Below the pieces are notes generated by a model that searched no databases, was not told the origin of the DNA, and saw only the letters and a program-made list of their open reading frames with translations. This document shows positions 27,369 to 30,721 of a stretch of DNA of 51,301 nt, one piece after another. How positions within the stretch are numbered: position 1 is the first letter of the stretch; each line of letters opens with the position of its first letter. The DNA comes from Candidatus Yanofskyibacteriota bacterium (GTDB lineage: Bacteria; Patescibacteriota; Minisyncoccia; JACQLN01): assembly GCA_943359335.1 (NCBI GenBank), contig CALRHC010000005.1, positions 1 through 51,301 on the forward strand. The letters are read 5' to 3'. The translations under genes were made by a program, and so were the position numbers.

Positions 27369-27659
27369 TCATGTGGCGCCATCAGTGTTGAGGCCCCAGA
27401 CTTGGGCGCCAAAAAAATTATTCCATGGAATATTATTGGCTTCTCGGAGATCGGCACCTCTGAGGTTAGAATGACAGAGATCAGCTCCCTGTAAATCAGC
27501 TTCTCGAAGGTTAACACGACTTAGGTCGGCTTCTCGGAGGTTAGCCTGACAAAGACTAGCCTGATAAAGATCAGGAATCACATCTGGATTATCCTTCCTC
27601 CAATTATTCCACTCTTCAACAGACCTGAGAAGCATCTGCACTTGTTCTGGATTCGCCAT
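27369..27659 (-). CDS. Pentapeptide repeat protein
   Basis: ANLREADLSRVNLREADLQGADLCHSNLRGADLREAN. Confidence 0.88.
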   Translation of the reverse strand: MANPEQVQMLLRSVEEWNNWRKDNPDVIPDLYQASLCQANLREADLSRVNLREADLQGADLCHSNLRGADLREANNIPWNNFFGAQVWGLNTDGAT

Positions 27660-28852: not shown

Positions 28853-28957
28853 ATGATCAAATCCAAGAAACTAATTAGAATCTTCTGGCTTATTGGAGCA
28901 ATATTAATAGCCATCTCTATGGTTCTTTACACCATTCTTCCTTTGTTTGTGTATTAA
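28853..28957 (+). CDS. 34-aa single-TM small protein
   Basis: MIKSKKLIRIFWLIGAILIAISMVLYTILPLFVY; no clear SD; TATAAT-like box just upstream. Confidence 0.5.
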   Translation: MIKSKKLIRIFWLIGAILIAISMVLYTILPLFVY

Positions 28958-29264
28958 AAAATGAGCCACAACCTTAGTTCTTGGTTGTGGCTCACGCGTC
29001 GAGCTTAGCCCGACATATCTTGTCGCTCTAGGCGACTTGGTTTGGTCTCGTCCTTAGGACGGACCGAAAGAACAGCTATGGAGAGAGCCTTGGCTCTTAC
29101 TCAAGGCTTGGGGGCGTGCGTCTAAGAAAACTAGAGCACACCCCTTATATCTCCATTTTCAGTGGATAACTCAGCATACAGAGCTCCCCCTCTGTTTGTT
29201 GTACTGCGTGAAATGAGCCCCCACCCTCAGTGATCTGCCTAGAACGAAGCAGCCCACCGACGAT
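28957..29264 (-). ncRNA. Structured ncRNA of unassigned family
   Basis: Own promoter TTGCAT-N17-TAGAAT, several GC-rich hairpins, closing stem CGTCG..GGGCT/AGCTCGACG, intrinsic terminator, no long ORF. Confidence 0.72.
28963..28993 (-). terminator. Terminator of the ncRNA
   Basis: GAGCCACAACCaagaactaaGGTTGTGGCTCATTTTTT on minus strand. Confidence 0.85.
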
Positions 29265-29270
29265 AAAAAC

Positions 29271-29299
29271 ATTCTAATTCAAGATAAAAAATAATGCAA
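29271..29299 (-). promoter_or_regulatory. Sigma70-type promoter for the ncRNA
   Basis: -35 TTGCAT, 17-nt spacer, -10 TAGAAT (minus strand). Confidence 0.7.
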
Positions 29300-29307
29300 G
29301 ACTCTAA

Positions 29308-29340
29308 AAACCCCCTCCGACATTGGTCGGAGGGGGTTTT
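29308..29340. terminator. Terminator of the ribosomal operon downstream of secY
   Basis: AAAACCCCCTCCGACcaatGTCGGAGGGGGTTTTT. Confidence 0.88.
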
Positions 29341-29363: not shown

Positions 29364-30632
29364 TTAAAAATTATCATACTCCCGTAAGGTTAGTTGCGCG
29401 TTTATCTGGCGCATTGTTTCCAAAACAACAGAAACCACAATCAACAATGCTGTGCCACCCAAGGTTAAAGTGGTAATGCCAAAGGCTCGTTGAACAATAA
29501 GAGGTAAGATGGCTATCAAGCCCAAAAACAAAGCACCCACCAAGGTTATACGATTAACCACATTACCTATAAAGGTTGCAGTTGGTTCACCCGGCCTTAT
29601 ACCAGGAATAAAGCCTCCTTGTTTTTGAACATTTTCAGAAATAGCTTTAGGATCAAACGTAACTGCAGTATAAAAATAAGTAAACACTGTAACTAAAAAG
29701 AAGTATAAAATTCCATAAGTTAACGGTTGCTGTAAAAATGCCGCTAAACTCTTAGAAATATTAGCAAGCCAAGTAATACTAGATGTAGATAAAAATTGAG
29801 CAATCAAACCAGGAAAAAGCAAAATAGATAATGAAAAAATTATTGGAATAACTCCAGCTTGGTTAACACGTAACGGAATATGGCTAGAAAAACCACCGAA
29901 AGTTCTTCGTCCTCTAACTCTTTTAGCAAAAGATACTGGAATATTTCTTTGTCCTTCGGAGATAATTACTATTCCAGCAATAACAACAACAGCAACAGCT
30001 ATAAAAACTAAATATGTAAAAATCTGGCTAGGGTCAAAAGCAATTAAACTTTGCCCAACACTAGTAGGTAAACTAGCAACGATGCCTGCAAATATTAAAA
30101 GAGATGTTCCATTACCAATTCCTTTTTCGGTAATAAGTTCGCCTATCCAAACCAAGAACATGGTTCCTGCGGTAACTGTAGTTATTAGAGTAATTAAATC
30201 GAAAAAAGGTAAGGAAACTATCACGCCTTGGCTTCTAAAAATAGAAACTGTGGCAAGCGACTGAAGAGCAGCTAAAGGAATAGTTAATAATCTAGAAAAT
30301 TGATTAAATTTGGCTCGCCCTTCGGAACCAGATTCCATATACATTTCCCTAAGGCTTGGAAAAATCATTGTCAAAAGCTGCATAATAATAGATGCAGTAA
30401 TGTATGGCCCTAAACCCAAAAGAATTACCGAGAAATTACTTAAAGTTCCTCCAGTAAATAAACTTACTAAACCTAATAATTGGTTAGAAGAAAAAAGTTC
30501 AGCCAACCTTACTCTATCTATACCAGGCATCGGTATAGATGAAGCTAACCTAAAAATTACAAGCATGCCTAAAATAAAAAATATCTTTTTTCTAAGATCT
30601 GGGATTTTAAAAATTTGTAGAAATTTATTCAT
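29364..30632 (-). CDS. secY: Preprotein translocase SecY (start set at MNKFLQIF)
   Basis: PMPGIDRVRLAELF, FSVILLGLGPYITASIIMQLL, GGFIPGIRPG. Confidence 0.95.
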   Translation of the reverse strand: MNKFLQIFKIPDLRKKIFFILGMLVIFRLASSIPMPGIDRVRLAELFSSNQLLGLVSLFTGGTLSNFSVILLGLGPYITASIIMQLLTMIFPSLREMYMESGSEGRAKFNQFSRLLTIPLAALQSLATVSIFRSQGVIVSLPFFDLITLITTVTAGTMFLVWIGELITEKGIGNGTSLLIFAGIVASLPTSVGQSLIAFDPSQIFTYLVFIAVAVVVIAGIVIISEGQRNIPVSFAKRVRGRRTFGGFSSHIPLRVNQAGVIPIIFSLSILLFPGLIAQFLSTSSITWLANISKSLAAFLQQPLTYGILYFFLVTVFTYFYTAVTFDPKAISENVQKQGGFIPGIRPGEPTATFIGNVVNRITLVGALFLGLIAILPLIVQRAFGITTLTLGGTALLIVVSVVLETMRQINAQLTLREYDNF

Positions 30633-30650
30633 GCTAATTTTATCTATGAG

Positions 30651-30669
30651 CCCCGACGTAACGTCGGGG
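30651..30669. repeat. Perfect palindrome between rplO and secY
   Basis: CCCCGACGTAACGTCGGGG. Confidence 0.85.
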
Positions 30670-30698
30670 TGAGCGATGCGAATAGTTATAAAATTGAG

Positions 30699-30721
30699 CA
30701 CCCCAAGCTTGCCGAGGGGTG
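30699..30721. repeat. Second hairpin between rplO and secY
   Basis: CACCCCaagcttgccgaGGGGTG. Confidence 0.75.

Follow-up and report, generated by a model that had tools for sequence, protein, structure and literature searches.

A probable stand-alone gene for a structured RNA in the secY/FtsB-like interval of one genus of Parcubacteria-type CPR bacteria

The interval between secY and an FtsB-like gene in a Candidatus Yanofskyibacteriota bacterium includes a region of about 300 nt without any minus-strand open reading frame of at least 40 codons, and it raises the question of whether a separate RNA gene lies there and of which kind it would be. The window studied is a stretch of 51,301 nt from contig CALRHC010000005.1; its genome is called G000 below, and G001, G002, and G003 are the other genomes of the genus. 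The first-pass annotation, made from the letters alone, had proposed an independent structured non-coding RNA of unrecognized family. That proposal is supported by the same locus in four genomes, by covariation, and by the lack of an Rfam match. The interval very probably holds a genuine, separate structured RNA gene, and its putative status as an RNA gene rests on evolutionary evidence. The RNA spans about 29264 to 28957 on the minus strand, and its size across the genus is ~260–310 nt with the terminator counted in.

Boundaries of the transcription unit

Features of the locus are listed in Table 1. The terminator of the secY operon was found where the first-pass annotation had placed it, and a promoter-like site follows, with a transcript start predicted near 29264. 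All four genus genomes retain the pattern TTGCA(A/T)-N17-TAGAAT, and the hexamers occur in this arrangement only a single time each in G000 and G003. The site had been described as a clean promoter. Its hexamers and 17-nt spacer are present, but "clean" overstates the case: the −35 hexamer matches TTGACA at 3 of 6 positions, which is weak, and TTGCAT-N17-TAGAAT was not called by a consensus promoter scan. For this putative promoter, conservation is a better argument than fit to the consensus.

At the other end, the strong intrinsic terminator reported earlier is present. A 34-codon gene converges on it from the opposite strand and encodes a protein with one likely membrane span; it was missed by the ORF listing, which had a threshold of 40 aa. 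Since this gene ends at 28957, the terminator of the RNA is usable on either strand. Because the convergent gene is conserved and ends there, no gene lies downstream within the transcript of the RNA, and the terminator common to both argues for a separate transcript. Conservation of the small gene also means that the RNA is not the leader of the FtsB-like gene, which forms a unit of its own. The 34-codon and FtsB-like genes are divergent with start codons 21 bases apart, a gap so short that both are perhaps leaderless. Taken over the four genomes, sequence evidence points to a stand-alone ncRNA gene with its own promoter and terminator.

Elsewhere in the window, a pentapeptide-repeat-like short ORF (LCQANLREADLSRVNLREADLQGADL) lies at 27369–27659 on the minus strand, beside a tRNA-Gly gene.

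Table 1. Features of the secY/FtsB-like interval in window coordinates
Feature	Position	Strand	Remarks
secY	29364–30701	−	Upstream neighbor of the RNA
Terminator of the secY operon	29306–29340	−	AAAACCCCCTCCGACCAATGTCGGAGGGGGTTTTT; upstream boundary of the RNA
Putative promoter TTGCAT-N17-TAGAAT	29271–29299	−	−35 TTGCAT 29299–29294, −10 TAGAAT 29276–29271; 17-nt spacer constant in 4/4 genus genomes
5′ stem-loop	29227–29260	−	Variable sequence, stem-loop in 4/4
Hairpin ACAGA(G) GGGGAG (C)TCTGT	29178–29195	−	G-rich loop; stem in 3/4, GGGGA in 4/4
10-codon ORF MLSYPLKMEI	29145–29177	−	Doubtful
Long-range helix 1, TGGAG/CTCCA	29079–29155	−	29155–29151 with 29083–29079; 95% of cells paired
Hairpin GGGGTGTGC/GCACGCCCC	29111–29144	−	Helices 2 and 3; inner UCUA/UAGA helix
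Extra hairpin AGCCTTG/CAAGGCT	29086–29108	−	G000 only; gap in 3 relatives
GTTCTTTCG	29065–29073	−	Invariant, mostly unpaired in 4/4; candidate working site
Hairpin H1, GGTC-CGTCC-TAA-GGACG-A-GACC	29044–29065	−	Helix 4; 6/8 pairs changed on both sides
Hairpin H2, GTCGC-CTAGA-GCGAC	29022–29036	−	Helix 5
Hairpin H3, GTCGGGC-TAA-GCTCGAC	28998–29014	−	Helix 6; local hairpin
Intrinsic terminator	28956–28994	−	13-bp stem (28994–28962) and T6; common to the convergent gene
Convergent membrane-protein gene	28853–28957	+	34 codons, MIKSKKLIRIFWLIGAILIAISMVLYTILPLFVY; kept across the genus; 3′ boundary of the RNA

Fold, covariation and occurrence

The RNA of G000 folds with a z-score of −6.7 with the terminator and −4.3 without it, and two homologues reach −5.1 and −5.4 without theirs. 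Zero shuffles equalled the native RNA in these tests. The hairpins listed in the first-pass annotation are all present, the closing stem apart. That stem, CGTCG..GGGCT/AGCTCGACG, was wrong as drawn and is truly the local hairpin H3 (29014–28998). In the fold, UGGAG/CUCCA encloses a GGGUGUG/CACACCC hairpin that has a further helix inside it, and H1–H3, whose loops are CU(U)AR, stand as consecutive 3′ hairpins ahead of the terminator. The segment GUUCUUUC is invariant and has a mean predicted unpaired probability of 0.57–0.76; GUUCUUUCG is the longest invariant unpaired segment. A pairing of the GGGGAG loop with UUCUUUC was dropped, as it would consist mostly of G-U pairs.

Covariation was assessed in alignment A4, which holds four sequences, was built manually around the helices, has N padding at indels, and excludes the private hairpin of G000 (29108–29086). 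In A4, which favors structure because it was built with the helices in mind and omits that extra hairpin, 97.8% of cells are paired and two-sided changes occur in 12 of the 35 pairs of the six helices, against 4.4 in shuffles (0 of 500 shuffles reach 12). When partner columns are slid by 1–3, two-sided changes fall to 0–3. H1 has the changes given in Table 1 and helices 2 and 3 have four pairs changed on both sides; helix 1, whose 5′ strand lies within the 10-codon ORF, has one-sided changes only. RNAalifold returned the same helices on A4 when unguided by the annotation, and when three sequences were aligned by MAFFT without guidance it recovered H2, H3, and the terminator. Compensatory changes within a conserved structure, the mark of an ncRNA gene, are taken as shown by these alignments, with caution over the helix-guided one. 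Comparative folding had been named beforehand as a check that could remove the ncRNA call if covariation were lacking; covariation was found and the call stands.

The RNA is present in all four genus genomes examined, at an identical site and in the gene order secY, RNA, FtsB-like gene. The homologues lie on contigs C10 of G002, C16 of G003, and C35 of G001, the last located through its FtsB-like neighbor, its sequence having diverged too far for a DNA search to find it. In a DNA search of 55 genomes, matches were confined to the genus. A covariance model (R1) scores the four genus copies at 104–162 bits and finds nothing beyond them at E 0.05 in 383 class genomes; a looser R1 search of 35 relatives gave chance-level fragments only. 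A motif scan of contigs from 84,980 species returned 16 stretches, with the model matched by two genus members only. In other families, where the next gene is readable, an adenylate-kinase-like frame comes after secY in most cases, and no RNA was recognized there. In the sister genus, represented by the only other genome of the family (G004), secY is cut by the contig end (G004:C51, 13698 bases) and the FtsB-like gene was not found in the assembly; absence of the RNA there is uninformative since secY is broken by an assembly gap. As far as can be seen from these searches, the RNA appears limited to one genus of Parcubacteria-type CPR bacteria.

Several candidate matches were rejected. Two Zambryskibacteria stretches from the motif scan (L058, L062) lack the structure. 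An IMG/VR stretch (L076, E 0.03) lies at a gene start on a phage contig and was selected by the pattern itself, and a DNA match on G003:C15 (4.3e-4) lies inside a 2253-aa coding frame.

The G003 assembly holds two RNase P RNA matches and a 16S tail just 83% identical to that of G000 (C17, C4, C19), and this bin is probably contaminated. It also carries four copies of a palindrome, GTTCAACACTAAGTGTTGAAC, mostly intergenic (C4:29940, 177201, 196212; C15:29590), one of which has changes in its outer bases.

Known families and candidate functions

No Rfam family matches the RNA region at gathering scores. The first-pass annotation had seen no tmRNA T-arm, RNase P P4 or SRP signature by eye and had named a significant Rfam match as a refutation of its call; this check did not refute it. 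A permissive Rfam scan of the region gave sub-threshold matches only, mostly on terminators. A scan of the whole genome (591,612 bases, six parts) found tRNAs, rRNAs, RNase P, and tmRNA only. A strongly diverged 6S, SRP, RNase P, or tmRNA is conceivable in a genome with no detected 6S or SRP RNA, since an undetected one could hide here. Each candidate has evidence against it. The region has no match to the P4-core model of RNase P RNA (RF00010/RF00011), and the RNase P RNA of G000 lies on a different contig (C1:78188–78633, 145 bits). Like tmRNA (RF00023), the RNA measures about 300 nt and contains a short open frame, but it has no tRNA-like domain, neither ARAGORN nor Rfam reports a tmRNA in the region, and the real tmRNA is elsewhere (C2:30895–31253, 107 bits). 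SRP RNA (RF00169, RF01854) has no match in the region or the genome. SRP54-type GTPases (Ffh/FtsY) were not found in the genus or its sister genus (G000–G004), although secY is present, and Parcubacteria have been reported to lack SRP (PMC4508563); an SRP RNA is therefore not expected. With RNase P and tmRNA located elsewhere and no SRP proteins, the RNA is none of these three in disguise. It resembles 6S RNA (RF00013) in being a stand-alone RNA gene of housekeeping size, but it is predicted to fold as a row of hairpins and not as a rod with a central bubble; the 6S model has no match in the region or the genome, and this model detects 6S in only 5 of 14 control genomes. A diverged housekeeping RNA is extremely unlikely, and this explanation is largely refuted.

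The most likely explanation is a lineage-specific trans-acting RNA. Such an RNA would be transcribed from the conserved promoter-like site, and action in trans would be expected from the lack of any later gene in its transcript and from the terminator that it shares with the convergent gene. As a whole, the account of a genus-restricted, stand-alone gene for a folded RNA with its own promoter and action in trans is somewhat probable. An alternative in which the ribosomal-protein/secY operon has a structured 3′ end here, protecting or maturing that mRNA, in place of a separate gene is very unlikely. The RNA does always lie directly downstream of secY. In G001, where the putative promoter starts ~16 nt past the secY stop, the interval between secY and the RNA has no evident terminator, so RNA production by read-through from the ribosomal-protein operon is also possible there. 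Against an operon 3′ end stand the conserved promoter with constant spacing upstream in all four genomes and the strong terminator between secY and the RNA in G000.

How a trans-acting RNA would work is less certain. Ranked first, because GUUCUUUCG is the longest invariant unpaired segment, is a regulatory sRNA in which this single-stranded segment would be held open between rigid hairpins and could pair with purine-rich messages. This antisense mechanism is tentative. GAAAGAA-type sites show no enrichment around gene starts: 35 ortholog pairs were found (≤−7 kcal/mol), whereas shuffled seeds gave 52 on average, the gene starts used being crude. SgrS- or RNAIII-like RNAs are base-pairing, trans-encoded sRNAs, some with a small ORF. 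The RNA is like them in its stand-alone gene, intrinsic terminator, exposed conserved pyrimidine-rich segment, and possible small ORF. It differs in that no Hfq homologue was found by tblastn in G000 or G003, targets are not enriched, and it matches none of them in Rfam.

Our second choice, a role as scaffold or sponge of an RNA-binding protein, is rather unlikely. The stems covary while the loops stay alike, and H1–H3 present a recurring C-U-(U)-A-purine loop (CUAAG, CUAGA, and CUAAG in G000; CUUAGG, CUAGA, and CUUAGG in G003; CUAGU and CUAAA in G001). In all, the motif, which was chosen post hoc, fits 8 of 9 loops, and shuffling letters within loops gives an expectation of 0.6. The same loops are also seen in further intergenic hairpins of these genomes that resemble terminators, so they may be merely stable loops of the lineage, and neither G000 (p 0.17) nor G003 (p 0.79) shows an excess of CTAR. 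The CUAR loop was rejected as a specific motif for being non-specific. CsrB titrates or scaffolds CsrA, and CsrB, CsrC, RsmY, and RsmZ are protein-sponge RNAs. These RNAs resemble the present one as intergenic genes with their own promoter and terminator, 100–400 nt in length, that form a row of hairpins with similar loops. The present RNA has no recurring GGA loops, its CU(U)AR loops being found elsewhere in the genomes too. No CsrA homologue was found by tblastn in G000 or G003 and no sponge family is matched in Rfam, which speaks against a CsrB-type sponge.

The kind of RNA, a bacterial ncRNA of a small clade, is common, and the family is uncatalogued. A literature search of open-licence PMC articles found no account of lineage-specific RNA genes in CPR bacteria. 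An RNA of ~300 nt retained in a 0.59 Mb genome is likely useful to its owner, and the alignment and motif enable a search for its transcript in CPR metatranscriptomes.

The 10-codon frame and the 16S rRNA tail

The first-pass annotation had also pointed to a tiny ORF, MLSYPLKMEI, after GGGGGAG. The ORF is present; GGGGGAG is an unconvincing ribosome site. The 3′ end of the G000 16S rRNA is GGATCACTTCTTATC, without the CCUCC anti-Shine-Dalgarno (L132:9630–9700 minus strand, G000:C4), and ortholog-supported ATG starts in G000 have A/T-rich leaders (AAATAAAAT) with very little Shine-Dalgarno or GGAG signal. Initiation led by a Shine-Dalgarno sequence thus appears to be lost in G000, and with no CCUCC in 16S and little GGAG in leaders, a role as ribosome site is not credible for the GGGGAG that precedes the tiny ORF. 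The context of its ATG is atypical against the leaders of G000. Translation of the tiny ORF is unlikely.

The same evidence bears on a dual-function RNA, in which a ribosome translating the 7–10-codon ORF would open the UGGAG/CUCCA helix and operate a switch. The counterparts in the relatives are MMRCPLKMEI, MRYPLKVEG, and MRFLPLET. All four genomes retain the ATG, the frame, and the stop, and length differences inside the ORF are 0, 3, and 6 nt, multiples of three. PLK is kept in three genomes with synonymous changes (CCA/CCG, CTG/TTA/TTG, TAA/TGA), and the 5′ strand of UGGAG/CUCCA sits in the ORF. These features fit a translated frame, but G002 retains only PL of this core, a TCCA/TGGA hairpin alone would constrain these bases, and the sequences are too few (n = 4). 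Together with the ribosome-site evidence, this leaves a ribosome-operated switch improbable. A ribosome-sensing form of the trans-acting RNA, in which UGGAG would swap between a hairpin in the ORF and the downstream CUCCA when the ORF is translated, is very improbable. If true, it would place a genus-specific ribosome-sensing RNA in a bacterium that lacks SRP and apparently does not use Shine-Dalgarno initiation.

A search of the available literature found no paper on this loss of the 16S anti-Shine-Dalgarno. Its distribution across class relatives is patchy (16S tails, L205–L221): CCTCC is kept in G013, G014, G015, G017, and G010, and G005, G006, G009, G011, G016, and G018 have diverse 16S tail sequences.
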